Part shown: one piece after another, positions 13,903-27,638 of the stretch
How the letters are laid out: each line of letters begins with the position of its first letter
Numbering within the stretch: position 1 is the stretch's first letter
Assembly (NCBI GenBank): GCA_013815355.1
Contig: JACDGG010000005.1
Span: forward strand, 1 to 43,127
Length of the DNA stretch: 43,127 nt
Direction of reading: 5' to 3'
From: Solirubrobacterales bacterium
Lineage (GTDB): Bacteria; Actinomycetota; Thermoleophilia; Solirubrobacterales; Solirubrobacteraceae
Position numbers and translations under genes: made by a program
Notes under the pieces: generated by a model
Databases searched by the model: none
The model's input: the letters and a program-made list of their open reading frames with translations, nothing else
What the model was told of the DNA's origin: nothing

Positions 13903-15441
13903 ATGCCAGTACAGGACCAGCAGGAGAGGGAGCACGACGACCAGCAACCGGACTCGCCGGGTAGCGAGAACGGCGTCGTCGAATTCGATGAACGTCGCGC
14001 CAAGATGGAGCGGTTGCGCGCGGAAGGCGTCGAGCCATATCCCGCTGTCACGCTGTGGGCGACGCGCACGCGCATCGCCGAAGTGCTCGCCGGCCATGAC
14101 GCGGCGACGCTCGACGCCGGCGAGCACCCCGAGCTCAGCTACCAGATCGCCGGCCGGTTGATCTCGCGTCGCGGACACGGCAAGACCGCGTTCCTGGACA
14201 TCCGCGACCTGTCCGGCTCGATCCAGGTGGTCGTGCGCGTCGATGCGCTCGGGCAGGAGACCTATGACCGCATCCTCGGCTTCGACATCGGCGACATCCT
14301 CGGCGTGCTCGGCTGCGTGTACGTCACCCAGCGCGGTCAGCTCGCGCTGGCGGTCAAGGAGTGCACGCTGCTGACCAAGACGCTGCGCCCGCCGCCGGAC
14401 AAGCACCACGGTCTCGGCGACACCGGCACGCGCTACCGCTACCGCGAGCTTGACCTGATCGCAAACGTTGACACGCGCGAGCTGTTCATCACGCGCAACA
14501 AGATCGTCCTCGGGATCCGCGAATGGCTCGCCGAAAGGCATTTTGTGGAGATCGAAACGCCGGCGCTGCAGTCGCTCGCCGGCGGCGCCGGCTCGCGCCC
14601 GTTCACCACCCACCACAACGCGCTCGACCGCGACCTCTACCTGCGCATCTCCGTCGAGCTGTTCCTCAACCGCTGCATCGTCGGCGGCATGGAGAACGTC
14701 TACGACATGGGCAAGGTTTTCCGCAACGAGGGCATCTCGCCGAAGCACAGCCCCGAGTTCACGATCATCGAGTTCATGTGCGCCTACTCCGACTACAACG
14801 ACGTCGCCACCGTCACCGAAGAAATGTTCCGCGATGTCTCACAGACGGCGATCGGGCGCACCGTCATCAAACGAAACGGTGAGGACATCGACCTCGCAAA
14901 GCCGTGGCGGCGCGTCACGATGCGCGAGCTGATCCAGGAGCGCTTCGGACTGGACTTCATGGAGTCCACGCGCGAGCAGCTCGCCGAGGTGCTCGACGGG
15001 CCGATCGACCCCGCCGCGACGTGGGCTGAGGTCGTCGGCGACATCTACTCGGAGAAAATCGAGTCGACGCTCAACCAGCCCACGCACGTGTTTGACTTCC
15101 CGCTCGAGCCTTTCCCGATCACGAAGCGCCACGCCGTGCACCCCGAGCTCGGCGAGCACTTCGACGCGGTCATCGGCGGCATCGAGCTCGTCAGCGGCGA
15201 CACCGAGTTGAACGACCCGGTCGATCAGTGGCAGCGCTTCGTCGACCAGCGCAAGCGGCGCATGATCGACGACGAGGATGTGCCGCACCCCAACGACGAG
15301 GAATACGCGCGTGCGATCGAGTACGGCTACTCGCCGACCGCCGGCGGCGGCATGGGCGTCGACCGCCTGGTCATGATCCTGACCGAACGCGACACGCTGC
15401 GCGAGGTCATTCCCTTCCCGATCGTGCGGGATCTGCAATGA
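13903..15441 (+). CDS. Class II lysyl-tRNA synthetase paralog 1 with altered lysine pocket
   Basis: A 512-residue protein, full LysRS length. An OB-fold anticodon-binding domain ('IAGRLISRRGHGKTAFLDIRD' in part) precedes the class II core. Motif 2 'VFRNEGIS' (F273-E276 onwards) and motif 3 'GGGMGVDR' (481-488) are intact, so ATP-dependent amino acid activation is expected. The side-chain pocket differs from LysRS: 'ELY' is E290-F-M292 and 'NGFSELNDP' is S431-G-D433-T-E435-LNDP, so residues aligning with E. coli Tyr280, Asn424 and Phe426 are Met, Ser and Asp. Also 'PVEVSPLAKR' is 'PLEPFPITKR'. I chose the ATG at 13903 over 13792, whose extra 37 residues lack LysRS similarity and overlap the promoter candidate. 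Its stop overlaps kamD as ATGA. It probably activates a lysine isomer, perhaps the mutase product (inference). Confidence 0.85.
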   Translation: MPVQDQQEREHDDQQPDSPGSENGVVEFDERRAKMERLRAEGVEPYPAVTLWATRTRIAEVLAGHDAATLDAGEHPELSYQIAGRLISRRGHGKTAFLDIRDLSGSIQVVVRVDALGQETYDRILGFDIGDILGVLGCVYVTQRGQLALAVKECTLLTKTLRPPPDKHHGLGDTGTRYRYRELDLIANVDTRELFITRNKIVLGIREWLAERHFVEIETPALQSLAGGAGSRPFTTHHNALDRDLYLRISVELFLNRCIVGGMENVYDMGKVFRNEGISPKHSPEFTIIEFMCAYSDYNDVATVTEEMFRDVSQTAIGRTVIKRNGEDIDLAKPWRRVTMRELIQERFGLDFMESTREQLAEVLDGPIDPAATWAEVVGDIYSEKIESTLNQPTHVFDFPLEPFPITKRHAVHPELGEHFDAVIGGIELVSGDTELNDPVDQWQRFVDQRKRRMIDDEDVPHPNDEEYARAIEYGYSPTAGGGMGVDRLVMILTERDTLREVIPFPIVRDLQ

Positions 15442-17063
15442 GCGCTCAGGCGAACGGCACCCATGGCCGGAACGGCTCCGCGTCGGCGCAGGGCAAGCTG
15501 GGGCTCGACCCCGGGGTAGTCTCGGCCTGCCGCCAGGCGGCAAAGCAGATCGCCGATGAGGTGGGCGAGCAGATCGCCGGGCGCACGACCGTCTCGGTCG
15601 AGCGCAGCGTTACGCGCCTGCTCGGCGTCGACGGCGCGGACGCGCTCGAGGTGCCGCTGCCGAACGTGCTCGTCGATCACGTGCACCACGGAGGCGGCCT
15701 CGGCAAGGGGATCTCACACTGGCTCGGCAACGCGCTGCTGCAGAGCGAGCGCACGCCCCAGCAGATCGCCGAGGCGCTCAGCGCGGGCGAGCTCGATCTG
15801 CTGAGGATCGAGCAGGCCGACGAGCAGGCGATCCGCGAGCGCATCACCGAGGAGTGCGCGGCGAAACTGGCGGAGATCAACCGCCGCTTCGCAGAGCGCC
15901 GCGCCACGCGCGAGCGCCTCGGCGAGACTGCCACTCCACAGCGCTACGTGCTCACGGCCACGGGCGATGTCTATGAGGACGTCGTGCACGCCAAGGCCGT
16001 CGCGCAGGCCGGCGGGGACATCATCGCGGTGATTCGCTCGACCGCGCAGAGCCTGCTCGACTACGTCCCCTACGGCCCCACCACCGAGGGCTACGGCGGT
16101 ACCTTTGCCACGCAGGCGAACTTCCGCATCATGCGCGAGGCGATGGACGAGTGGTCTGAGCAGCACGGGCGCTACGTGCGCCTGTCGAGCTTCTGCTCGG
16201 GCCTGTGCATGTCGGAGATCGCCGCGATGGGCGCCTGGGAGGGCTTTGACAACATGGTCAACGACGCCCTCTACGGCATCCTCTACCGCGACATCAACCC
16301 TGTGCGCGGCCTGATCGACCAGCGCATCTCGCGCATGATCAACGGCTACTTCGGCGTCGTCATCAACACCGGCGAGGACAACTATCTGCGCACCGCCGAT
16401 GCCCTCGAGGCAGCACCCTCGGTCACTGCCTCGCAGTTCATCAACCATCAGCTCGCGCACGCCTCGGGCGTGCCCGACGCGCAGATCGGACTCGGCGACG
16501 CGTTCGAGATCGACGTGCCCGTCACCAACAGCCTGCTTTATGAGTGGGCCCAAGCGCAGCTCACGCGCGAGCTGTTCCCGGACTGCCCCGTCAAGTACAT
16601 GCCGCCCACACGGCACATGGACGGCAACCTGTTCCGCACGCACGCCGCCGACTCGCTGTTCAACCTCGTCACGATCGCAACCGGCCAGGGCATCCAGACG
16701 ATCGGCGTGCCGACTGAGGGCATCTTCACGCCCCACATCCACGACCGCGTGCTCGGCCTGCAGAACGTCGACTACGTCTTCAACGCCGCGCGCGACATCG
16801 GCGAGGAGGTCGAGTTCAAGCGCGGCGGGATCATCCAGACGCACGCCCAGCAGGTGCTCTCAGGCGCTCGGGCGCTGCTCGAGCGGATCGCGGATACGGG
16901 CCTCTTCAAGGCGATCGAGGAGGCGAGCTTCGGTGATGTCAGCCGCAAGATCGACGCGGGCCGGGGCCTGGAGGGGATCGTGGAGACCGAGCCCGGCTAC
17001 TTCAACCCCGTGGTCGGGCTGATGCGCGACCCGGCCGTCGCGGACGAGGCGAGCTATGCGTAG
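15438..17063 (+). CDS. kamD: Lysine 5,6-aminomutase alpha subunit, copy 1
   Basis: A 541-residue protein matching the large PLP-binding TIM-barrel subunit of D-lysine/beta-lysine 5,6-aminomutase, an adenosylcobalamin enzyme that moves the terminal amino group from C6 to C5. Visible family blocks: 'YGPTTEGYGGTFATQANFRI', 'RLSSFCSGLCMSEIAAMGA', 'NDALYGILYRDIN', 'INTGEDNYLRTADA', 'TASQFINHQLA' and 'VKYMPPTRHMDGNLFRTH'. These match my memory of the clostridial KamD closely, so activity is likely. The ATG overlaps the LysRS stop (ATGA), and its own stop overlaps kamE by 8 nt, giving tight stoichiometric coupling. The first ~15 residues are a flexible Gly/Asn/Ser tail. It is clearly related to the copy at 22273-23832 but with many substitutions, so the duplication is not recent. 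Confidence 0.93.
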   Translation: MSAQANGTHGRNGSASAQGKLGLDPGVVSACRQAAKQIADEVGEQIAGRTTVSVERSVTRLLGVDGADALEVPLPNVLVDHVHHGGGLGKGISHWLGNALLQSERTPQQIAEALSAGELDLLRIEQADEQAIRERITEECAAKLAEINRRFAERRATRERLGETATPQRYVLTATGDVYEDVVHAKAVAQAGGDIIAVIRSTAQSLLDYVPYGPTTEGYGGTFATQANFRIMREAMDEWSEQHGRYVRLSSFCSGLCMSEIAAMGAWEGFDNMVNDALYGILYRDINPVRGLIDQRISRMINGYFGVVINTGEDNYLRTADALEAAPSVTASQFINHQLAHASGVPDAQIGLGDAFEIDVPVTNSLLYEWAQAQLTRELFPDCPVKYMPPTRHMDGNLFRTHAADSLFNLVTIATGQGIQTIGVPTEGIFTPHIHDRVLGLQNVDYVFNAARDIGEEVEFKRGGIIQTHAQQVLSGARALLERIADTGLFKAIEEASFGDVSRKIDAGRGLEGIVETEPGYFNPVVGLMRDPAVADEASYA

Positions 17064-17814
17064 GGACGTCGACCTCACAGCGGTCGGCCCATACGCCGAC
17101 CACCTCAGCGACGGGCTCGTGCAGATGAGCTTCACGCTGCCGGTGCCCCACTCGCTCGCCGCACGCAAGGCCGCGCTGGAGCTGGCCGGCAAGATGGGAT
17201 TCTCCGAGCCCGAGGTGGTTCACTACGAGGAGCTGACCGAGGGCTACACCTACTTCGTGATGTATGGGCGCTGCACGCAGAGCGTCGACTTCGAGGCGCT
17301 GCAGGGCGAGGGCTTCGACATCGAGTACATGAGCGAGGATGAGATCGAGCGCTTCGCCGCGGAGCACCTCAGCCGCAAGGTGGTGGTCGTCGGGGCGAGC
17401 ACGGGCTCCGATACCCACAGCGTCGGCATCGACGCGATGCTCAACCTCAAGGGCTACCACGGCCACCACGGCCTCGAGGGCTACCACGCCTTCGAGACCC
17501 ACAACCTCGGCAGCCAGGTCCCCAACAGCGTGCTGCTGGCCAAGGCGATCGAGGTCGGCGCCGATGCGATCCTCGTCTCCCAGACGGTCACCCAGCAGAA
17601 CCTGCACGTGCACAATCTCACTGAGCTCGTCGAGATGGTCGAGGCCGAGGGCAGGCGCGGGGACATGATCCTCGCCTGCGGCGGCCCGCGCGTCTCCAAC
17701 GAGCTCGCCAAGGAGCTCGGCTACGACGCGGGCTTCTCCAAGGGCACTGAACCGCATCACCTCGCGACCTTCATCGTGCGAGAGCTCGCCGCACGCGTGG
17801 CGAGCACCACCTGA
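17056..17814 (+). CDS. kamE: Lysine 5,6-aminomutase beta subunit (B12-binding), copy 1
   Basis: A 252-residue protein. Residues ~1-90 are the aminomutase dimerisation domain ('VQMSFTLPVPHSLAARKAAL', 'YTYFVMYGRC'). The rest is a Rossmann-like cobalamin-binding domain. D119-x-H121-x-x-G124 (SDTHSVGID) is the base-off/His-on motif whose His ligates cobalt. Lys132 in 'NLKGYHG' lies 11 residues later, the spacing of His133 and Lys144 that I recall for the clostridial enzyme, where the lysine forms the PLP aldimine. 'NLGSQVPN', 'VSQTVTQQNLHVHNL' and 'LACGGPRVSNELAKELG' complete the fold. It overlaps kamD by 8 nt and is followed after 10 nt by the KamB-like gene. The subunit looks intact. Confidence 0.93.
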   Translation: MRRDVDLTAVGPYADHLSDGLVQMSFTLPVPHSLAARKAALELAGKMGFSEPEVVHYEELTEGYTYFVMYGRCTQSVDFEALQGEGFDIEYMSEDEIERFAAEHLSRKVVVVGASTGSDTHSVGIDAMLNLKGYHGHHGLEGYHAFETHNLGSQVPNSVLLAKAIEVGADAILVSQTVTQQNLHVHNLTELVEMVEAEGRRGDMILACGGPRVSNELAKELGYDAGFSKGTEPHHLATFIVRELAARVASTT

Positions 17815-17824
17815 GAGGCTCTGA

Positions 17825-18868
17825 GTGCTGAGCGATCTGACCGCCTCCGCCAGGCGCCTGGCGCTGGTGGGGCTCGCCAAGAACACGGGCAAGACGGAGG
17901 CGCTCGCAGCGCTCCTGCGCGAGCTGGAGGCGGCCGGGCGCCACATCGGCGTGACCTCAGTCGGCCACGACGGCGAGGAGCGCGACGTGATCAACGCCGA
18001 GATCAGCAAGCCACGCGTGCTCCTCGGAGGCGGGAGCATCGTCGCGACCACCGACGCGCTGCTGCGCGCGAGCGGACTGCCTCACGATCTGCTGCAGAGC
18101 ACAGGCGTCCGGACGCCGCTCGGCGAGGTCTTGATCGCTCGCCTGCGCGGTCGCGGCGCGCTCGAGGTCGCCGGTCCGAGCGACTCGGCAGGCCTCGGCG
18201 CGGTAAGCGAGGCGATGCTCGGCTACGGCGCCGAGCAGGTTCTGATCGACGGCGCGATCGACCGCCGCGCCGCCTCCTCGCCGGCGGTGACCGACGGCCT
18301 CGTGATCTCGACCGGCGCGGTCCTCAGCCACGACATCGAGGAGATCGTGACGATCACTCGGGAGGCCGTCGAGCTCGTGCGCCTACCCCATCTCGATCCG
18401 AGCGCGACGGGACTGCGCACGCTCGCTGAAGGCGACTCGATAACGGCGCTCCTCAGCGATGACCTCGAGCCGGTGGCGCTGCCCGAGCGCTTCATCCTCA
18501 CCAGCGAGGACGGGCAGACCGCCCGGCTGCTCGACGAGCACCCTCGCGCTCGCTGGCTGCTCGTCGCCGGTGCGCTTCCCGATCGCTTCCTGCGCCAGCT
18601 CGCGCACGCCGCGCACCGCCGCGGGCGCGAGCTGACCGTCGTCGTGGCAGACCCCACGAAGGTGTTCCTCGCCGGACACGGCATCGGCTGGTTTGGAGCG
18701 CAGGGCGTCACGATCGAGGCGCTGGACACGATCCCCCTGCTCGCGATCACCGTCAATCCGGTGGCGCCCCAGTCACACCACTTCGACTCGATTGAGCTAC
18801 GCGACCTGCTGGCCGAGGCGATCCCCGACGTGCCGATCTTCGACGTGCTGCACGCCGACTATCGCTAG
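17825..18868 (+). CDS. KamB-like P-loop protein, putative aminomutase reactivase component, copy 1
   Basis: A 347-residue protein with a GTG start. Residues 16-24 (GLAKNTGKT) are a Walker A motif in an N-terminal strand-loop-helix, followed by 'ITVNPVAPQSHHFDS' near the C-terminus and 'VLIDGAIDRRAASSP' in the middle; the middle and end fit a SIMIBI-like or related NTPase fold. Proteins of this kind sit beside kamDE in lysine fermenters, where KamB with the MutS-like KamC is proposed to reactivate cobalamin-inactivated 5,6-aminomutase. I identify it by position and the AKNTGKT loop, not by alignment. No KamC-like gene is in the window. Its last 4 bases overlap the stop of the convergent LysRS paralog 2. 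Confidence 0.62.
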   Translation: MLSDLTASARRLALVGLAKNTGKTEALAALLRELEAAGRHIGVTSVGHDGEERDVINAEISKPRVLLGGGSIVATTDALLRASGLPHDLLQSTGVRTPLGEVLIARLRGRGALEVAGPSDSAGLGAVSEAMLGYGAEQVLIDGAIDRRAASSPAVTDGLVISTGAVLSHDIEEIVTITREAVELVRLPHLDPSATGLRTLAEGDSITALLSDDLEPVALPERFILTSEDGQTARLLDEHPRARWLLVAGALPDRFLRQLAHAAHRRGRELTVVVADPTKVFLAGHGIGWFGAQGVTIEALDTIPLLAITVNPVAPQSHHFDSIELRDLLAEAIPDVPIFDVLHADYR

Positions 18869-20427
18869 CGCAGCTCGCGCAGCGTCGGGAACGGCACGAC
18901 TTCGCGAATCGACTCGACGCCGCAGAGGATCATCAGGAAGCGGTCGACGCCCATGCCGCCGCCGGTCGTCGGCGCCATGCCATATTCGAGCGCGCGCACG
19001 TAGCCCTCGTCGTAGGGGTGGGGCTGATCGCCGTCGTCGCCGGGGCGGCGCTTTCGCTGTGTGACGAAGCGATCCCACTGGTCGAGCGGGTCGTTCAGCT
19101 CGGTATCGCCTGAGAGCACCTCCATGCCGCGGATCACCGTGTCGAAGTGCTCGCCGAGGCGCGGGTCGCGGGAGTGGCGCTTGCAGATCGGGAACAGCTC
19201 GATCGGGAAGTCGAGCACGTGCGTCGGCTGCATCAGAAACGGCTCGACGTACTTGCCGTAGACCTCTTCGGCCAGCTTCGCCCAACTCATCTCCGGGTCG
19301 ACCGAGGGCTCGTCGAGCACCTCGATCAGCTCCTCGCGGCCGGCCTCGAGATAATCGACGCCGACAGCCTCCATGATCGCCTCCTGCAGAGTCACTCGCT
19401 TCCACGGGCGCGCGAGGTCGATCACCTGTCCGTCGTACTGCTCGATCTTGGTCGTGCCCAGCGTGCGCAGCGCGACACCCTCGGCGAGCTCTTCGCACCA
19501 CACCGCCACGTCGAGGTAGTCTGCGTAGCTCATCATGCACTCGAGGATCGTGAATTCGGGGCTGTGACGGTGTGAGATCCCCTCGTTGCGGAAGGCGCGA
19601 CCGAGGTCGTAGATGTTCTCGAGGCCCCCGACGATGCAGCGGTTGAGGTACAGCTCGACGGAGATGCGCAGGTGCAACTCAACGTTGAGCGCGTTGTGGT
19701 GGGTCTTGAACGGGCGCGAGTTGGCGCCGCCGGCGAGCGCCTGCAGCATCGGCGTCTCGATCTGCGTGAAGCCTTTCTCGCGCAACACCGCGTGGATCGC
19801 CTCGATCGCGTGTGTGCGTTTGAAGAACATCTCGCGCGTCTTGGCATTGGCAAGCAGGTCCAGTTCGCGGTAGCGATAGCGCGTACCAAGATCCTCGACG
19901 CCGTGGTGGCGGTCGGGCGGCGGGCGCAGCGCCTTCGCCAGCAACGTGCACGCATCGACTCCGAGCGCGAGCTGGCGACGCTGGGTCACATAGACGGCCG
20001 CATCGACGCTCACGATGTCGCCGATGTCGAGGTCGAGCATGCGCTCGTAGGCCTCGTCTCCCATCGCCTCGCGGCGTGCGACGAGCTGGATCAAGCCGGA
20101 CTGGTCGCGCAGATCGAAGAAAGTCGCCTTGGAATGCCCGCGCCGCGCAATCAAGCGACCGCACGCGCGATAGCTGAGGCCGGGATGAGCGCCCGTTGCG
20201 ATCGCTGCGGGATCGTGAGCAGCCTGGATGTCCGCCACCCAGGTGCGTGGCACACGCTTCTCGAGATAGGGATAGGGCTCGACTCCCTCGCCCCGCAGCC
20301 GCTCCATCTTCGCGCGACGTTCGTCGGCGCCGACGGTCTCCTCCTCCTGTACATGCGAACCGTTGCCCGCCGCGGTCTCGAGCGCCACGTCTGCCTCCTC
20401 TGGTGGTGACTTTCCGGGCGCGCTCAC
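18865..20427 (-). CDS. Class II lysyl-tRNA synthetase paralog 2 with altered lysine pocket
   Basis: A 520-residue protein beginning with GTG inside the GTGA overlap with the upstream KamB-like gene. It has the same layout as paralog 1: a disordered acidic N-terminus, OB fold ('ACGRLIARRGHSKATFFDLR'), motif 2 'AFRNEGISHRHSPEF' and motif 3 'TGGGMGVDR'. The pocket carries the same changes: E296-C-M298 where LysRS has ELY, and S439-G-D441-T-E443 where LysRS has NGFSE. 'PVEVSPLAKR' is 'PIELFPICKR'. So the altered pocket survived while the rest of the protein diverged from paralog 1, which argues for selection. It is last in the minus-strand cassette, whereas paralog 1 is first in its own. The substrate may be the same or a related lysine isomer (inference). 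Confidence 0.85.
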   Translation of the reverse strand: MSAPGKSPPEEADVALETAAGNGSHVQEEETVGADERRAKMERLRGEGVEPYPYLEKRVPRTWVADIQAAHDPAAIATGAHPGLSYRACGRLIARRGHSKATFFDLRDQSGLIQLVARREAMGDEAYERMLDLDIGDIVSVDAAVYVTQRRQLALGVDACTLLAKALRPPPDRHHGVEDLGTRYRYRELDLLANAKTREMFFKRTHAIEAIHAVLREKGFTQIETPMLQALAGGANSRPFKTHHNALNVELHLRISVELYLNRCIVGGLENIYDLGRAFRNEGISHRHSPEFTILECMMSYADYLDVAVWCEELAEGVALRTLGTTKIEQYDGQVIDLARPWKRVTLQEAIMEAVGVDYLEAGREELIEVLDEPSVDPEMSWAKLAEEVYGKYVEPFLMQPTHVLDFPIELFPICKRHSRDPRLGEHFDTVIRGMEVLSGDTELNDPLDQWDRFVTQRKRRPGDDGDQPHPYDEGYVRALEYGMAPTTGGGMGVDRFLMILCGVESIREVVPFPTLRELR

Positions 20428-21467
20428 ACGAGCACCAGCTCACGATCGCGCACGTCGAGAATCGGCACGCGCGGGATTGCCTCTTCGAGCAGCCCGCGCA
20501 GGTGCTTGGAGTCGAACACGTGCGAGTGCGGCGCCACCGGGTTGACCGTCAGCGCACGCAGATGAATCGGGGCGAGCACGCGCAGATGGATGCCCTGACG
20601 GGCAAACCAGCCACAGCCATGCTCTGCGAGGAACACCTTCGAACTGTCCGCCACAGTCACGGTCAGCTCGCGCCCTCGTGCGGCACGCAGCAGCCGCACG
20701 AGGAACGACTCGCAGAGGGCGCCGCGAACGATCAGGTGGCGCGCCGAGGGGCTCGAGCGCAGGACCGCGGCGATCTGCTCGCTCGTGCCGCTCAGCGCGA
20801 GGCGAGCGGGGAGCGAGAGCCACGATCCGTCGTCCTCGCCCACGAGCACGCTGTCCGGCTGTGCGCTGGCGATCGCGCGGATCAGTGGGTCCTCGAGCTC
20901 GGGCAGGCACACGAGCTCGACCGCGCTGCGGGTGCGCGCCACCACCTGCTCGGCATCACTGTCGAGCACCGCGCCCGTGGACATCACGAGGCCGTCCGAA
21001 ACGGTTGGCGAGGACGCCATCCGACGGTCGAGGGCCCCGTCGATCAGCACCTGGTCGGCGCCGTGGAAGAGCATCGCGTCGCTCACCGCGCGCACGTCCT
21101 CGGCCGCGCTCGGCCCGGCGATCTCGACGCTCCCCGCCGCCAGCATGCGCGCCACGACAACGCGGCCGAGCGAGGTGCGCATGTCCGTGCGCAGCAGCCG
21201 TTCGTGCGCCTGCGGGCATGCTTTCAGCAGCGACTCGGTCGTGGCCACGAGACTCCAGGCGGGCAGCTCGATGCGCGGCTTCTCGATGCGCGCGTCGATC
21301 ACGTCGCGCTGCTCGCCATCGCGGCCCACGGAGGTGACCCCCACAGTCTGCCCCGCTTCGTGCAGCTCGCGCACCGCGCAGGTGAGCGTTTCGGTCTTCC
21401 CCGTGTTCTTTGCGAGGCCCACGAACGCGACACGACGCGTCCAGGCGAGTAGTTCTGAGAGCGACAT
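20424..21467 (-). CDS. KamB-like P-loop protein, copy 2
   Basis: A 347-residue protein, the same length as copy 1 at 17825-18868. Walker A GLAKNTGKT is at residues 17-25. Shared blocks with copy 1 are 'GVTSVGRDGEQRDVIDARI', 'VLIDGALDRRMASSP', 'GLVMSTGAVL', 'VTVADSSKVFLAEHG' and 'LTVNPVAPHSHVFDS'. The stop codon overlaps the GTG of the LysRS paralog (GTGA), and the start lies 6 nt past the kamE2 stop, so all four genes form one translationally linked unit. The assignment as aminomutase reactivase component rests on gene context; another NTP-dependent role, such as coupling mutase and synthetase, cannot be excluded. Confidence 0.62.
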   Translation of the reverse strand: MSLSELLAWTRRVAFVGLAKNTGKTETLTCAVRELHEAGQTVGVTSVGRDGEQRDVIDARIEKPRIELPAWSLVATTESLLKACPQAHERLLRTDMRTSLGRVVVARMLAAGSVEIAGPSAAEDVRAVSDAMLFHGADQVLIDGALDRRMASSPTVSDGLVMSTGAVLDSDAEQVVARTRSAVELVCLPELEDPLIRAIASAQPDSVLVGEDDGSWLSLPARLALSGTSEQIAAVLRSSPSARHLIVRGALCESFLVRLLRAARGRELTVTVADSSKVFLAEHGCGWFARQGIHLRVLAPIHLRALTVNPVAPHSHVFDSKHLRGLLEEAIPRVPILDVRDRELVLV

Positions 21468-21473
21468 CGCGCG

Positions 21474-22268
21474 CTAACCCGCCGCCTGCACGGCGGCGTC
21501 GCGCTCGGAGAGCGTGCTTTGCTCGGCGATCCGCGCGGCCAGCTCGCGCACCAGGAACGTCGCGAGGTGATGTGGATAGGTTCCGCGCGAGAAGCCCGCG
21601 TCGAAGCCGAGCTCCTTGGCAAGCTCGTTGGAGACGCGTGAGCCGCCGCAGGCGAGAATCGTGCGCTTGCGCCGGCCCTCGGCCTCCACTATCTCGACCA
21701 GCTCGGTCAGATTGTGGATGTGCAGATCCTGCTGGGTGACCGTCTGGGAAACGAGAATCGCATCGGCGTCCAGCTCGATCGCCTTGGCGACGAGCGTGCT
21801 GTTGGGGACCTGGCTGCCGAGGTTGTGAGCCTCGAACGCGCGGTAGCCTTCCAGGCCCCGGTTGCCGTGAAAGCCCTTGAGGTCGAGCATCGCATCGATC
21901 CCGACGCTGTGGGTGTCCGAGCCGGTGCAGGCTCCGACGACCACGATCGGACGGCCGATGTGCTCGGCCGCATATGCCTCGATCTCATCTTCGCTGAGGT
22001 ACTCGAGGTCGAGCTCGTCGACCTGCTGGGCGGTGTAGTCGATGCTGCCGGCGAAGCGCCCGTAGAGAAGGAAGTGCGTGTAGCTCTCGCGCAGACGCTG
22101 CTGGTGAACGACCTCGGCGCGCTCGAGGCCGAGCCTCGCAGCGAGCTCCAACGCGCACTTGCGCCCCGCCTGCCCGTGTGGCACGGGCAGCGTGAAGCTG
22201 ATCTGCACGATGCCGTCGTCGAGATGGTCGCCGTATGGGCGCACCCGCTCGAGGTCGACCGCGCGCAT
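21474..22268 (-). CDS. kamE: Lysine 5,6-aminomutase beta subunit (B12-binding), copy 2
   Basis: A 264-residue protein. It has a dimerisation domain ('VQISFTLPVPHGQAGRKCAL') and a cobalamin domain with D118-x-H120-x-x-G123 (SDTHSVGID) and Lys131 (DLKGFHG), the same cobalt-ligand and PLP-lysine spacing as copy 1. 'NLGSQVPN', 'VSQTVTQQDLHIHNL' and 'LACGGSRVSNELAKELG' are conserved. The ATG at 22268, 4 nt after the kamD2 stop, is preferred; the longer frame upstream reads through kamD2 in another frame and is Arg/Ser-rich noise. The extra C-terminal ~12 residues compared with copy 1 are unconserved. Confidence 0.92.
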   Translation of the reverse strand: MRAVDLERVRPYGDHLDDGIVQISFTLPVPHGQAGRKCALELAARLGLERAEVVHQQRLRESYTHFLLYGRFAGSIDYTAQQVDELDLEYLSEDEIEAYAAEHIGRPIVVVGACTGSDTHSVGIDAMLDLKGFHGNRGLEGYRAFEAHNLGSQVPNSTLVAKAIELDADAILVSQTVTQQDLHIHNLTELVEIVEAEGRRKRTILACGGSRVSNELAKELGFDAGFSRGTYPHHLATFLVRELAARIAEQSTLSERDAAVQAAG

Positions 22269-22272
22269 CTGA

Positions 22273-23832
22273 CTAGACAACGCCCACTCCTTCCATGACC
22301 TCGAGCGCCGGGTTGAAGTAGCGCTCGTCGGTCTCGATAATCCCCTCGAGACCGCGCCCCTCGTCGATTCGCCGCCGCACGTCGCCGAACGTGCCGTCTT
22401 CGATCGCACCGAACATCCCCACCTCGGCGATCCGCTCGAGCAGCTCATGCGCTTTGTGCAGTACCTCGCCCGCGCGCGTCTGAATCAGTCCGCCGGGCTT
22501 GAACTGGATCTCCTCGCCGAGGTCGCGGGCGAAGTTGAAGACGTAGTCCACACATTCAAGACCCACCACGCGGTCGTACATGTGCGGCGTGAAGACGCCC
22601 TCGGTCGGTACGCCCGCGGTCTGGATGCCCTGTCCGGTGGCGACCGTGATCAGGTTGAACAGCGTGTCGCAGGCGTGCGTGCGGAACAGGTTGCCGTCCA
22701 TGTGGCGCGTCGGGGGCATGTACTTGATCGGGCAGGCAGGGAACAGCTCGCGCGTCAGCTGCGCCTGCGCCCAGGCGTAGAGCAGGCCGTTGGTCGTTGG
22801 CGGGTCGATCTCGAAGGCATCGCCGAGCGCCACCTGCTCCTCGCGCATGCCGGAGTCGAGCGCGAGGCGGTGGTTGATGAACTGCGATGCCGTCACCGAC
22901 GGCGCCGCCTCCAGTGCCTCGGCCGTGCGCAGGTAGTTGTCCTCGCCCGTGTTGATGACCATCCCGAAGTAGCCGGCGATCATCCGTGAGACGCGCTGGT
23001 CGATCAGCGTGCGCTGCATGTTGATGCCGCGGTAGAGGATGCCGTAGAGCGCGTCGTTGACCATGTTGTCGAGCCCCTCCATCGCGCCGAGCGTCGCGAA
23101 CTCGGTCATGCACAACCCCGAGCAGAAGCTCGACAGGCGCACGTAGCGCCCATTGCGCTCGCACCACTCATCCAGGCCCTCGCGCATGATGCGGAAGTTC
23201 TCCTGGGTTGCAAAGCTGCCGCCATAACCCTCGGTCGTCGGTCCATAGGGCACGTGCTCGAGCAGGCTCTGCGCCGTGGAGCGTGTCACCGAGACGACAT
23301 CCCCGCCCGCCTCGGCGACCGCCACTGAGTGCACGACATCCTCGTACACGTTGCCCGTGCCGCTGAGCATGTAGCGAAGCGGCGTCGGACCCTCGCCGAG
23401 GCGCTCGCGCATCTCTCGGCGCTCGTCCGCACGGCGCGCGACCTCTCCCATGCGCTCTTCGCACTCGCGCGTGATGAGCGTGCGGATCGCTCCCTCCTGC
23501 GCCAGCGGCAGGCTGCAGAGATCGAGCGTCCCGGCGCTGACGGCCTCGGCGACCTCCTGAGCGCTGCGCCCGCTGAGCAGCATCGCGTTGCCGAGCCAGT
23601 AGGCGACTCCCCGGCCCAACCCGCCGCCATCGTGCACGTGCCCCACCAGCACATTCGGCAGCGGCACGTCGAGATCGCTGATTCCGTCGACCCCGAGAAA
23701 ACGCGTGACCGTGCGCTCCACCGAGACGGTCGTCTTGCCCGCGGTTTCCGCAGCGAGCCGCTCAGCAATTTGCGCGGCGAGCTGCCGGCATGCCTCGAGC
23801 ACCCCTACGTCTAGGTCCAGCTTCGACTCCAT
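22273..23832 (-). CDS. kamD: Lysine 5,6-aminomutase alpha subunit, copy 2
   Basis: A 519-residue PLP-binding large subunit, first in the minus-strand cassette. Family blocks are 'YGPTTEGYGGSFATQENFRI', 'RLSSFCSGLCMTEFATLGA', 'NDALYGILYRGIN', 'INTGEDNYLRTAEA', 'TASQFINHRLA' and 'IKYMPPTRHMDGNLFRTH'. The ATG at 23832 is chosen because the protein's similarity to copy 1 begins there ('LDLDVGVLEACRQLA'); an upstream ATG at 23904 would add 24 residues with no counterpart. TAGTCT lies shortly before this start and could be a -10, but I see no convincing -35. It works with KamE2; whether the two mutases differ in substrate (D-lysine, L-beta-lysine, or another) cannot be read from sequence. Confidence 0.92.
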   Translation of the reverse strand: MESKLDLDVGVLEACRQLAAQIAERLAAETAGKTTVSVERTVTRFLGVDGISDLDVPLPNVLVGHVHDGGGLGRGVAYWLGNAMLLSGRSAQEVAEAVSAGTLDLCSLPLAQEGAIRTLITRECEERMGEVARRADERREMRERLGEGPTPLRYMLSGTGNVYEDVVHSVAVAEAGGDVVSVTRSTAQSLLEHVPYGPTTEGYGGSFATQENFRIMREGLDEWCERNGRYVRLSSFCSGLCMTEFATLGAMEGLDNMVNDALYGILYRGINMQRTLIDQRVSRMIAGYFGMVINTGEDNYLRTAEALEAAPSVTASQFINHRLALDSGMREEQVALGDAFEIDPPTTNGLLYAWAQAQLTRELFPACPIKYMPPTRHMDGNLFRTHACDTLFNLITVATGQGIQTAGVPTEGVFTPHMYDRVVGLECVDYVFNFARDLGEEIQFKPGGLIQTRAGEVLHKAHELLERIAEVGMFGAIEDGTFGDVRRRIDEGRGLEGIIETDERYFNPALEVMEGVGVV

Positions 23833-23945
23833 CGTGCGCCCGAGACTAATCGCCGCCTGCCGATGCTCGGCATAGGATGGGTGAATACTGCAATTGCCCT
23901 GCATGCGGGCGGAGTCTTATGAAGGTGAATGTTTCCCTCTCGTCC

Positions 23946-24151: not shown

Positions 24152-25558
24152 ATGGCCACGGAAATCGCCTCACTCGACCTGCTTTTCGAAGCCCCCGCCG
24201 CTCAGCCCGGCGAGCAGCCCCTGCCCGACCTGGGCAGCCGCGCCGGCGCTCGCCCGGCCCCCGCGTCGAGCACGGAGCTGCTGAAGGACAGGCCCTACAT
24301 CGTCGACTTCTGCGATCCCAGCCCGACGACCGCACTGCACGCGGGTTACCTGCGCAACATCGCGCTCGGACATGCCCTTGCGAGCGCTCTGGAAGCTGCG
24401 GGCGCGCATGTCGCACGCCAGACGCAGATCGCCGATTCCGGGCGTGACATGGGTGAGGCGATCGCGGGCTATCTGCACTTCGCCTCGGACACCGATCCTG
24501 CGGGAGCGCGCGAGAAGAGCGACCGTTTCGTCGGTCGCCTGCATGCTCTGCACGCCAAGGAGCCGCAGGAGTCTCCGGATCTCGCCGACTCGCTGCTCAA
24601 GCGCCTCGCCTCGGGCGACCGTGAGATCCGTGAGGTGTGGCAGGCGGTCCGCGACTGGGCCGTCAGCGGTCAGAACGAGACACTCGCGCGGCTGGGCGTG
24701 CGCTTCGACCGCACGATCTTCGACTCGCAGTACGTTCCTCGGATAGAGCCGCTCGTGCGGCTCGCGCTCGCGCAGGGCGTGATCTCCGCCGCCGGGGACG
24801 GCTCGCTCACGGTCGACGTGGGTGCTGAGGAGTGCCTGCCGCTGATCGGAGCCGACGGCGTCCCGACGCGCGATCTGCGCGCACTGACGATCTGGCGCTC
24901 GCTGATGACCGAGATGACAGACGTCACGCTCGTGCGTCTGACCAGCGAGGAACGACGCGACAACCTCGACGCGATTCTGCAGGAGCTCGCGCCGGGCGCG
25001 CCCAGCTATCCGACGGCCGTGCTCCACGCCGCGGTGGTCACAGACCGCGACGACGGCCCCGGCGGTGAGAGCACGCTGCTGATCGATGAGCTGCTCGACA
25101 TGCTGAGCGGCAGCGATGAGCTTCAGCGCCTGGCGATCGAGGAGCGGCCCTCGTGCGCCGCGCAGGACCTCGCTTCGATGATCTTGATGGGGATGTGCCT
25201 CGATCACCCGCTGTATGACCCGCTGCCGATCACGCCCGAGCGCGTGCTCGACAGTGCGAGCAACACCGGTTGGGTGCTGGCGAGGGCGTGGATGAAGGCG
25301 TGGGACCCGAAGAACGACGGCGGCCCGCTGCCGCTGCCCGACGAAGAGCACTACCGCTCTCTCGTCGCGCAGGCGCAGCTGCGTCCGCTGCTCGAACGGA
25401 CGGTCAAGACGCACGATGTGACCGGGCTCGTGCGCTTTCTGGCGCGAATCGGAAGCTGGTACATGGAGACCGACACCGATGCGGCCGTGGGACGCATCAT
25501 GCGCTCGCTGCTGTCAAGTGGACTGGGTGCGCTGGGCCTGATCAGGCCTTCGGAGTGA
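24152..25558 (+). CDS. Arginyl-tRNA synthetase paralog with degenerate signature motifs
   Basis: A 468-residue protein related to the class I ArgRS core. 'VDFCDPSPTTALHAGYLRNI' aligns with the ArgRS block 'VEF.SANPTGPLHVGHGR', but HIGH-type HxGH is HAGY (residues 63-66). 'RQTQIADSGRDMGEA' matches the following block. 'LARLGVRFDRTIFDS' and 'DGSLTVDV' match the central region, where the ArgRS 'MSTRKG' loop is replaced by 'GPGGEST' before 'LIDELLDML'. The C-terminus ('GLVRFLARIGSWY ... RSLLSSGLGALGLIRP') resembles the DALR anticodon-binding domain. The N-terminal ~100-residue D-loop-binding domain of ArgRS is missing; only ~45 disordered residues stand in its place. It is probably not a housekeeping ArgRS. 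It could be a ligase for another acceptor (as MshC is to CysRS), a tRNA-binding protein or a regulator. First gene of the operon. Confidence 0.72.
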   Translation: MATEIASLDLLFEAPAAQPGEQPLPDLGSRAGARPAPASSTELLKDRPYIVDFCDPSPTTALHAGYLRNIALGHALASALEAAGAHVARQTQIADSGRDMGEAIAGYLHFASDTDPAGAREKSDRFVGRLHALHAKEPQESPDLADSLLKRLASGDREIREVWQAVRDWAVSGQNETLARLGVRFDRTIFDSQYVPRIEPLVRLALAQGVISAAGDGSLTVDVGAEECLPLIGADGVPTRDLRALTIWRSLMTEMTDVTLVRLTSEERRDNLDAILQELAPGAPSYPTAVLHAAVVTDRDDGPGGESTLLIDELLDMLSGSDELQRLAIEERPSCAAQDLASMILMGMCLDHPLYDPLPITPERVLDSASNTGWVLARAWMKAWDPKNDGGPLPLPDEEHYRSLVAQAQLRPLLERTVKTHDVTGLVRFLARIGSWYMETDTDAAVGRIMRSLLSSGLGALGLIRPSE

Positions 25559-25575: not shown

Positions 25576-26286
25576 ATGAGCGCCACGTATGAGACCTCGA
25601 TGGCGGACCCCAATGCACTGGAGAACGATCTGCGCTCCTTCTACCTCACGGGGAATGAGGAGCAGAGCATCTTTGACGAGTGGGAGCACGGGATCGCCCG
25701 AGGAGACTCGACGACTCCGTCGATCTCCTCCCCCACCTACCGCTGGTGGATCCTCGAGCACCTGCGCAACGCGCTCAACCGCGACCGCAAGCACCTGCTG
25801 CTGAGCCTCGGCTCCGGCAACGCGTTCGTGGAGCGCGTGCTCTGCCGCGAAGGCTACCCCGTGCTCGCCGTGGACGCGCTCGATCACGCGGTGCAGCTCG
25901 CGCGCCAGGCGGGAGTGCCGGCGATCAACCACAACCTCTACACCTGGAAGACGGAGCCGGAATACTGGGATGTTCTCTACGCCGACGGGCTGCTCGGGCA
26001 TCTGCACGACGGACAGGACGGCGCGCACGTGGCGCTGAAGCTGTTTCACAGCTGGCTGAAGAGCTCGGGCGGCACGGTCGTGATCTCAAACGATTCGCCG
26101 AAATCCGGCGAGCCCGTGCAGCAGTCCTCGAACGTGCCGGGCTTCTACTGGCTCTCCGATCATTGGATTGCGGATGAACTGAAGCGCGCGGGCTTCTCGC
26201 GCGTCTCGACCGCAGCGATCACCTATCGCCGTCCGGTGTCGGGCCTGCGCACGCGCGCGATCATCACCGCCCACCGCAACGACTGA
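25576..26286 (+). CDS. Class I SAM-dependent methyltransferase, substrate unknown
   Basis: A 236-residue protein. Motif I 'LLLSLGSGN' is at residues 74-82, followed by 'VLAVDALDHAVQLAR' (acidic residue for the SAM ribose), 'WDVLYADGLLGHL' (motif II region) and 'SSGGTVVISND' (motif III region). The N-terminal ~65 residues are a helical cap ('YRWWILEHLRNALNRD'). It lies 17 nt after the ArgRS-like gene and 20 nt before lysA, with GAGGGGAG as a ribosome-binding site, so it belongs to the lysine operon. Its substrate may be a lysine-derived metabolite, a tRNA or a protein; nothing in the sequence decides this. Confidence 0.72.
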   Translation: MSATYETSMADPNALENDLRSFYLTGNEEQSIFDEWEHGIARGDSTTPSISSPTYRWWILEHLRNALNRDRKHLLLSLGSGNAFVERVLCREGYPVLAVDALDHAVQLARQAGVPAINHNLYTWKTEPEYWDVLYADGLLGHLHDGQDGAHVALKLFHSWLKSSGGTVVISNDSPKSGEPVQQSSNVPGFYWLSDHWIADELKRAGFSRVSTAAITYRRPVSGLRTRAIITAHRND

Positions 26287-26306: not shown

Positions 26307-27638
26307 ATGCCGATCGGCCAGCACTTCAACGCGCAGCTCGAGCGCCATCTGCCGGCGATCGCCGAGCACTACGGCACGCCATTTCACATCTATGACGAGC
26401 GGGGGATCAACGACGCCGCGGGGCGACTGCTGAGCGCCTTCGAGGGACTGCCCTTCCACGAGTACTACGCGGTCAAGGCGCTGCCCAACCTGACGGTCCT
26501 GCGCATGCTGCGCGAGCGGGGCCTCGGCATGGAGTGCAGCTCGCTCGCCGAGCTCGAGCTAGCACGCGATGCGGGCGCGATCGGAGATGAGGTGTTCTTC
26601 ACCTCCAACAACACGACGCGCGAGGAGTTCGCCGCGGCGATCGAGATGGATGCGATCGTCAACATCGACGACATCTCGCTGATCGAGAAGCTGCCCAGGG
26701 CGCCCTCGATCGTCTCGTTCCGCTTCAACCCAGGGCCCGAGCGCGTCGGCGACCGCCTGATCGGCTCCCCGCGCGAGGCGAAGTTCGGGTTGCGCCGCGA
26801 CCAGCTGCTCGCGGCCTACGAGCGGGCGCGCGAACTCGGCACCGAGCGCTTCGGCCTGCACGCGATGATCGCCTCGAACGTGCTGAGCGTCGAGCCGCTG
26901 CTGGCGACGGTCGCGATGCTGCTGGAGATCGAGGAGCAGCTGCAGCGCACGCTGGGCATCTCGCTTGAGTTCATCAACGCCGGCGGCGGCCTCGGCATCC
27001 CCTACCGCCCGACGGATTCTCGCCTGGATCTCGGTGCGCTTGGGCGGGGTGCCCGCGAGCTGCTGGAGTCTCACAGCTTCCGCACCGGGCGCCGGCCAAA
27101 GCTGTTCCTCGAGTCCGGCCGCTTCATCTCAGGCCCACACGGCGTGCTCGTCACGCGCGTGATCAACCGCCTTAGCAAGTGGCGCGAGTACGCGGGCGTC
27201 GACGCCGGCATCGCGGCGCTGCTGCGCACCGCGATGTATCCCGACGCCTACCACCACGTGACGCTGCACGGCGACCGCGGCGAACGGCGCCTGCAGCGCG
27301 TGGACGTCGTCGGCTCGCTGTGTGAGAACAACGACAAGCTCGCGATCCAGCGTCCGCTGCCCGAACTGCGCGAAGGCGATCTGCTGCTCGTTCACGACAC
27401 CGGCGCACACGGCCTGGCGATGGGCTTCAACTACAATGGGCGCCTGCGCCCCCAGGAGCTGTTGCTGCGCAGCGACGGCAGCGTCGAGCTGATCCGCCGC
27501 CGCGAGGAGGTGCGCCGCGACTACTTCGCCACGCTCCAGTTCGAGGCCGACGTGTTCGATCCGAGCGCGCCCTCGGGCCTGCCACCGGGCGTGGAGCGCA
27601 TCGGTGACGACGCGCGCACTCCGGCTCCGGTGAGCTGA
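26307..27638 (+). CDS. lysA: Diaminopimelate decarboxylase-type PLP enzyme, variant subfamily
   Basis: A 443-residue fold-type III PLP decarboxylase, expected to convert meso-diaminopimelate to L-lysine. The PLP lysine is K57 in 'YYAVKALPN', the phosphate loop is 'NAGGGLGIPYRP', and C339 in 'GSLCENNDKLA' is the catalytic cysteine of the CE-x-x-D motif. The usual 'HxHIGSQ' block is 'LHAMIASN' (H185 onward), with 'FRFNPGP'; this form also occurs in a diaminopimelate decarboxylase subgroup I remember from clostridia. It is followed after 1 nt by dapD. Because the subgroup is divergent, a related substrate (another lysine-like amino acid) should be kept open. Confidence 0.8.
   Translation: MPIGQHFNAQLERHLPAIAEHYGTPFHIYDERGINDAAGRLLSAFEGLPFHEYYAVKALPNLTVLRMLRERGLGMECSSLAELELARDAGAIGDEVFFTSNNTTREEFAAAIEMDAIVNIDDISLIEKLPRAPSIVSFRFNPGPERVGDRLIGSPREAKFGLRRDQLLAAYERARELGTERFGLHAMIASNVLSVEPLLATVAMLLEIEEQLQRTLGISLEFINAGGGLGIPYRPTDSRLDLGALGRGARELLESHSFRTGRRPKLFLESGRFISGPHGVLVTRVINRLSKWREYAGVDAGIAALLRTAMYPDAYHHVTLHGDRGERRLQRVDVVGSLCENNDKLAIQRPLPELREGDLLLVHDTGAHGLAMGFNYNGRLRPQELLLRSDGSVELIRRREEVRRDYFATLQFEADVFDPSAPSGLPPGVERIGDDARTPAPVS

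Follow-up and report, generated by a model that had tools for sequence, protein, structure and literature searches.

We propose a model in which two adjacent gene cassettes of a Solirubrobacterales bacterium each act as a make-and-activate unit for an isomer of lysine. The cassettes occupy positions 13903-23832 of a 43,127-nucleotide stretch of DNA (GenBank assembly GCA_013815355.1, contig JACDGG010000005.1, positions 1 to 43,127; below, the window), which is contig 157 of a 305-contig metagenome-assembled genome that is 91% complete. Each encodes the two subunits of lysine 5,6-aminomutase (KamD and KamE), the reactivase KamB and a full-length class II lysyl-tRNA synthetase (LysRS) paralog. 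In the model KamDE, kept active by KamB, would shift the terminal amino group of lysine from C6 to C5, most likely yielding 2,5-diaminohexanoate. This product would be adenylated by the neighbouring LysRS paralog, whose side-chain pocket is apparently rebuilt for an amine closer to the alpha carbon, and the activated residue would pass to an acceptor, which is most likely a tRNA-Lys-type tRNA serving outside normal decoding. We consider the make-and-activate reading probable, and we infer from sequence the identity of the isomer, its role as the substrate of the synthetase and the kind of acceptor. That the partner synthetase activates the mutase product had been suggested in an earlier, sequence-only reading of the window, and the suggestion now gains support from a pocket seemingly rewritten where the lysine isomer differs from lysine and from a swap of partner enzyme with a matching change of pocket.

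The two cassettes are convergent, with all frames open, and overlap each other by 4 nucleotides at 18865-18868. Cassette 1 (13903-18868, plus strand) runs in the order LysRS1 (13903..15441), KamD1 (15438..17063), KamE1 (17056..17814) and KamB1 (17825..18868), with a 4-nucleotide overlap between LysRS1 and KamD1, an 8-nucleotide overlap between KamD1 and KamE1 and a 10-nucleotide gap before KamB1. Cassette 2 (23832-18865, minus strand) runs KamD2 (22273..23832, with a further upstream ATG at 23904), KamE2 (21474..22268), KamB2 (20424..21467) and LysRS2 (18865..20427); KamB2 and LysRS2 overlap by 4 nucleotides and the remaining junctions are gaps of a few bases. Families were assigned with curated models for LysRS and for the three Kam proteins (NF052384, NF052385 and NF052386), together with Pfam domains. 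LysRS1 (470.2 bits) and LysRS2 (434.2 bits) both exceed the curated lysS_bact cut-off of 427.6, KamD1 scores 777 bits against a cut-off of 600, KamE1 347 against 280, and KamB1 288 against 210 for NF052386, 'lysine 5,6-aminomutase reactivase subunit KamB'. KamD2, KamE2 and the OB-fold domains were assigned by Pfam, the OB-fold (PF01336) being found in both LysRS1 and LysRS2. KamB2 is an open frame for a P-loop reactivase paralog that has no Pfam match and maps by tblastn to the same regions of relatives as KamB1. Gene content and tight packing are thus as the sequence-only reading had described them, with its KamB-like P-loop protein now named slightly more precisely as the reactivase KamB.

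Both mutases look intact. KamD1 and KamD2, which are 69% identical, keep R184, S189, S238, Y263, R268, D298, N299 and K370 (1xrs numbering, with 238 read from a neighbouring column), positions that we take to form the surroundings of pyridoxal phosphate (PLP) and substrate in the solved enzyme. KamE1 and KamE2 both retain the cobalamin (B12) motif DxHxxG, as DTHSVG, and the lysine-bearing PLP loop, as NLK and DLK respectively. Ratios of non-synonymous to synonymous substitution (dN/dS) against orthologues are 0.13-0.19 for LysRS1, KamD1, LysRS2 and KamD2, and all four genes are under purifying selection.

The synthetase pocket was examined by alignment with E. coli LysU and with EpmA from the K-12 record (LysU numbering throughout). 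All 14 Kam-linked LysRS copies, LysRS1 and LysRS2 included, carry Y280M, N424S, F426D, K244N and E414D, whereas ordinary LysRS keep Y280, N424, K244 and E414 in 33 of 33 sequences and have Phe at position 426 in 32 and Tyr in one. E240, R262, E264, H270, E278, E428 and R480 are invariant in Kam-linked and ordinary enzymes alike. In human LysRS, as described in 2025, Y341 and Y499 stack on either side of the lysine side chain, the epsilon-amine is bound by E501 and the alpha-amine by E339 and E301 (PMC11878792); these five residues align with Y280, F426, E428, E278 and E240. As aligned, both aromatic walls of the side-chain channel are rebuilt, one of them to an acid, and the contacts to the alpha-amino group, ATP and the CCA end are kept. 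Such a pocket would fit an amine nearer the alpha carbon, as in 2,5-diaminohexanoate. It also bears on the possibility that the paralogs are spare or resistant synthetases that still charge lysine, under stress or in the presence of lysine analogues, with kamDEB nearby only incidentally. Duplicates of this kind are known, among them LysU and the mupirocin-resistant IleRS2 (PMC9437257), and both paralogs pass the lysS_bact cut-off. Yet the two walls that hold lysine are replaced in every copy, one by Asp, and are aromatic in ordinary copies, residue 280 changes together with the partner enzyme, and the link to kamD has no exception in the genus sample, so that we regard this explanation as improbable.

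The change of partner is seen in sister genomes. When aligned LysRS are grouped by residues 280 and 426, the groups coincide with those defined by the neighbouring gene: M280 copies all stand beside kamD, and six of the seven L280 copies stand beside a transaminase. At these six loci, all from genus-mates, the gene after the sister LysRS, which carries L280, S424 and D426, encodes a class III aminotransferase from the diaminobutyrate transaminase family; four of the six share one spot, after an Mrp gene, and kamD was not found in the three transaminase-linked genomes searched for it. Kam-linked and transaminase-linked copies form two clades inside one paralog clade of the LysRS tree (98/86, 100/96, 100/100). 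By sequence, the amino-acid-making enzyme and the synthetase pocket change together, which provides the strongest case for the partner's product as the substrate of the synthetase. It represents one evolutionary switch and is suggestive rather than proof. Two further LysRS variants fall outside both clades. One, with E280 and S426 (genome G304; L174:4284-8928), has a VioC/clavaminate-synthase-like hydroxylase gene nearby and overlaps a methyltransferase-like gene, perhaps a third type of partner, in one genome only; the other (genome G047; L232:9458-11183), with F280, S424, S426 and D428, starts beside a tRNA-Lys(UUU) gene.

When 84,980 species, each represented by one genome, were scanned with KamD1, 80 loci were obtained; LysRS adjoins kamD in those from Solirubrobacterales, and no LysRS was seen near kamD within the flanks examined of the Bacteroidales and Clostridia loci. 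The kamDEB-LysRS set recurs in at least 12 genomes of the genus, in one of them (G186) in the order LysRS-KamB-KamD-KamE. The second cassette recurs in genome G290, there without KamB2, adjoining ArgRS-like, methyltransferase, LysA, DapD, DapC and DapE genes; the two cassettes of that genome lie on different contigs. Together with the dN/dS values, this recurrence means that the arrangement is not due to chance. Of the genomes of the genus in which both genes were searched for, 11 contain kamD as well as the Kam-type LysRS and six contain neither (Fisher p ~8e-5, a value that ignores relatedness); wherever both are found, they are neighbours. In a KamD tree that we rely on lightly, since one row (L016) is in the wrong frame and two LysRS-linked rows (L127 and L233) are mislabelled, the LysRS-linked KamD proteins group together at 93/96 once these rows are read with correction. 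A separate ordinary LysRS is present in every one of the genomes searched for both genes, which indicates that the cassette paralogs are not the housekeeping enzyme; in the genome of the window (G000) this third copy lies on another contig (G000:C42) and is 44% identical to the cassette paralogs. The sequence-only reading had proposed a search for co-occurrence across genomes and had hinged on the paralogs not being the cell's only LysRS and on relatives keeping the pair. All 11 kamD-positive genomes have the two genes side by side, the six kamD-negative genomes lack this type of LysRS, and a further LysRS serves the cell.

Lysine 5,6-aminomutase is known to act on D-lysine or beta-lysine. KamA, the lysine 2,3-aminomutase (TIGR03820, E <= 1e-20), was found in none of 20 genomes of the same family, with E. 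coli as a positive control, and in all three kamD-bearing genomes tested from another family of the same class. Its absence argues against beta-lysine as the mutase substrate. All paralogs also have Gly (LysU G475) at the position of EpmA A298, a residue that we take to be significant. As KamA is missing, and as the alpha-amino contacts and this Gly are kept, 2,5-diaminohexanoate is favoured over 3,5-diaminohexanoate as the predicted product. KamDE is known mainly from lysine fermentation, and kamDEB might accordingly degrade lysine here, with the LysRS copy only monitoring intermediates or shielding translation from them. We consider this very improbable: KamA is absent from all genomes of the family tested but present in the kamD-bearing genomes of the other family, a LysRS with a protective role should have kept its binding of lysine, and no further gene of fermentation was recognised in the window, model searches not having covered Kdd, Kce and Kal. 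Lysine fermentation was set aside on the absence of KamA from the family.

The make-and-activate model leaves a choice of acceptor. Every Kam-linked copy retains the anticodon contacts R76, F84 and Q95, and all paralogs retain the CCA contacts E264 and H270; the former correspond to R136, F144 and Q155 of human LysRS, which with E195 served as the tRNA contacts for comparison (PMC11878792). Binding of tRNA by the Kam-linked enzymes is likely on this pattern. It is because the OB-fold, most anticodon contacts and the CCA contacts are retained that a tRNA of the tRNA-Lys type is placed at the end of the proposed pathway. Provided that the make-and-activate reading holds, a tRNA is the somewhat favoured acceptor, use in ordinary translation is considerably less probable than that, and a protein or small-molecule acceptor takes most of what is left if activation is right.

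Several observations weigh against the model as a whole or against its last step. The AlphaFold model of LysRS1 is of low confidence in the catalytic domain, with a mean pLDDT of 67 near the pocket; LysRS structures rank first when it is searched with Foldseek, but it was not used for pocket geometry, which rests on the sequence alignment. Because the Kam-linked copies come from a single genus and are related to one another, the pocket they share may go back to one event. In genome G186 a transaminase-type LysRS lies on a 10-kb contig with neither a transaminase nor kamD beside it, so that linkage of this type to its partner is not absolute. At the anticodon, the contact E134 (human E195) is Gln in 12 of the 14 Kam-linked copies, and tRNA binding is perhaps altered. 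Extra tRNA-Lys genes were sought in G000 and G151, both incomplete, and only the CUU and UUU types were found. The lysyl-phosphatidylglycerol synthase domain PF09924 has no match in the genome of the window and occurs in two of 18 genomes overall, and the cassettes have no acceptor or transferase gene in common.

These last points bear on an alternative that shares the first two steps of the model and differs at the third, namely that the paralogs are tRNA-independent transferases that activate the isomer as EpmA or MshC would and join it to a protein, such as a lysine of elongation factor P (EF-P), or to a small-molecule amine, with the OB-fold kept for another purpose. EpmA (PoxA) is itself a LysRS paralog that moves beta-lysine to EF-P (PMC9437257), EF-P has Lys at the position of E. 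coli K34 in all genomes compared, and no dedicated tRNA-Lys was found in G000 or G151. Against this, the tip of EF-P is the same in genomes with and without a cassette, the cassettes hold no conserved acceptor gene, and EpmA lacks the OB-fold that every paralog keeps along with most anticodon contacts. We judge the alternative unlikely, though of appreciable weight. Neither ARAGORN nor Rfam detected a dedicated tRNA in the window. EF-P was rejected as a discriminating acceptor on the identity of its tip, and an MprF-type acceptor on the absence of PF09924 from the genome.

Cassette 2 is adjoined by further genes on the plus strand whose membership of the system is uncertain. The first (24152..25558) encodes an ArgRS-like class I paralog with HAGY in place of HIGH and a lost SSSKG loop, features shared by both known orthologues; its dN/dS is 0.25 and its predicted model matches ArgRS folds. 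Though conserved, this synthetase relative is probably non-adenylating; the degradation of its HIGH and KMSKS-like motifs, seen in both orthologues, led us to set it aside as a second activating enzyme. A methyltransferase-like gene (25576..26286), kept with cassette 2 in one other genome, and a gene for a LysA-like PLP decarboxylase (26307..27638), the first of the LysA-DapD and DapC-DapE lysine-biosynthesis genes, follow downstream.

Other ArgRS-like paralogs are preceded at short distance, on the same strand, by a 73-nucleotide class-I tRNA with a UAA anticodon; the distance was read in L138, L226 and L227. Sites of such tRNAs are L138:7040-7112 and 608-680 (G000:C213), L227:7316-7388, L226:8039-8111 and L234:3347-3419. 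Genome G151 also has a normal 85-nucleotide tRNA-Leu(UAA), and UUA accounts for 14 of the 89,036 codons in genus loci; the arrangement resembles a synthetase whose dedicated tRNA sits on a very rare codon. Members of the ArgRS-like family in L216, L217-L221, L224 and L225 lie next to tRNAs whose anticodon is UCU or AGU, and several of these tRNAs are again of the unusual type. Low-scoring, partly degenerate tRNA copies, possibly remnants, lie near a tRNA-Thr(CGU) gene at L332:112-183 (G000:C243) and L322:107-180 (G151:C42). The locus at G000:C213 (L138), where a fused aminodeoxychorismate-synthase-like gene comes after the ArgRS-like gene and a P450-like gene lies upstream, is likely a secondary-metabolite locus, and L216:6671-10443 holds a row of ArgRS-like, methyltransferase and dapdiamide-synthase-like ATP-grasp ligase genes. 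Three genomes of the same family pair kamDEB with an ArgRS-like protein and have no LysRS at the locus (L120, L121, which is from the same genome as L023, and L122), and in G230 a tRNA(CCU) resembling the odd tRNAs lies ~0.5 kb from such a pair. In Micromonospora matsumotoense (L022), kamDEB lies, as read by eye, within an apparent non-ribosomal peptide gene cluster with a P450, which suggests that the lysine isomer is a peptide building block there.

If correct, the model would add an independent second example of a lysine mutase that supplies a LysRS paralog, by chemistry unlike that of EpmB/EpmA. The cassettes would belong to a modular family in which the synthetase pocket co-varies with the enzyme that makes the amino acid, be it 5,6-aminomutase or a diaminobutyrate-type transaminase. 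This would make the natural re-specialisation of synthetases for non-standard amino acids directly testable, and genetic-code engineering would gain a LysRS pocket already shaped for other diamino acids. We tentatively entertain, at rather less than even chance, that the paralogs charge cellular tRNA with 2,5-diaminohexanoate, or in the sister genomes with 2,4-diaminobutyrate, providing a natural pool of tRNA bearing non-standard diamino acids for tRNA-dependent synthesis or even insertion into protein. Were tRNA the acceptor, these would be natural aminoacyl-tRNA species beyond the known 22 amino acids. The uncultured soil actinobacteria concerned would appear to make dedicated use of a non-standard amino acid in a way seemingly undescribed.

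The sequence-only reading knew of no described system with this gene set, and no description of kamDE paired with any synthetase was found in the open-licence literature. Housekeeping LysRS (LysS/LysU) have the same domain layout and the same ATP, alpha-amino and CCA residues; the cassette paralogs differ in their rebuilt side-chain pocket and form a separate clade (100/100), and they are LysRS by curated score and not, as aligned, by pocket. The KamDE of lysine fermenters (8t0v, 9q1a and 1xrs) has a KamD 52-53% identical to those described here with the same active-site residues, whereas here, in a family without KamA, KamDEB is tied to a synthetase paralog. The pyrrolysine system (PylBCD with PylRS) likewise pairs the making of a lysine-derived amino acid with its own class II synthetase; the cassettes differ in that no dedicated tRNA was found with them, in their mutase chemistry, and in building on a LysRS rather than a PylRS scaffold. 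In actinobacteria a dedicated second LysRS is also known from LysX, an MprF-LysRS fusion (PMC9437257), but the cassette LysRS carry no fused MprF domain for lysyl-lipid synthesis and the genome of the window has none. The closest likeness is to EpmA/EpmB (PoxA/YjeK), in which a LysRS paralog and a lysine mutase together make and activate a non-standard lysine. EpmB is a radical-SAM 2,3-aminomutase, whereas the cassettes have a B12/PLP-dependent 5,6-aminomutase; EpmA lacks the OB-fold, keeps Y280, N424 and F426 and has Ala at G475, whereas the cassette paralogs have the OB-fold and Gly475 and have changed the other three positions. Nor do they pass the curated EpmA model TIGR00462 (165.6 and 159 bits against a cut-off of 286.9). 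Judged on these comparisons, the cassette paralogs fail every EpmA feature tested, and the logic of the predicted pathway, in which a mutase supplies the residue that a LysRS relative would activate, is like that of EpmB/EpmA.

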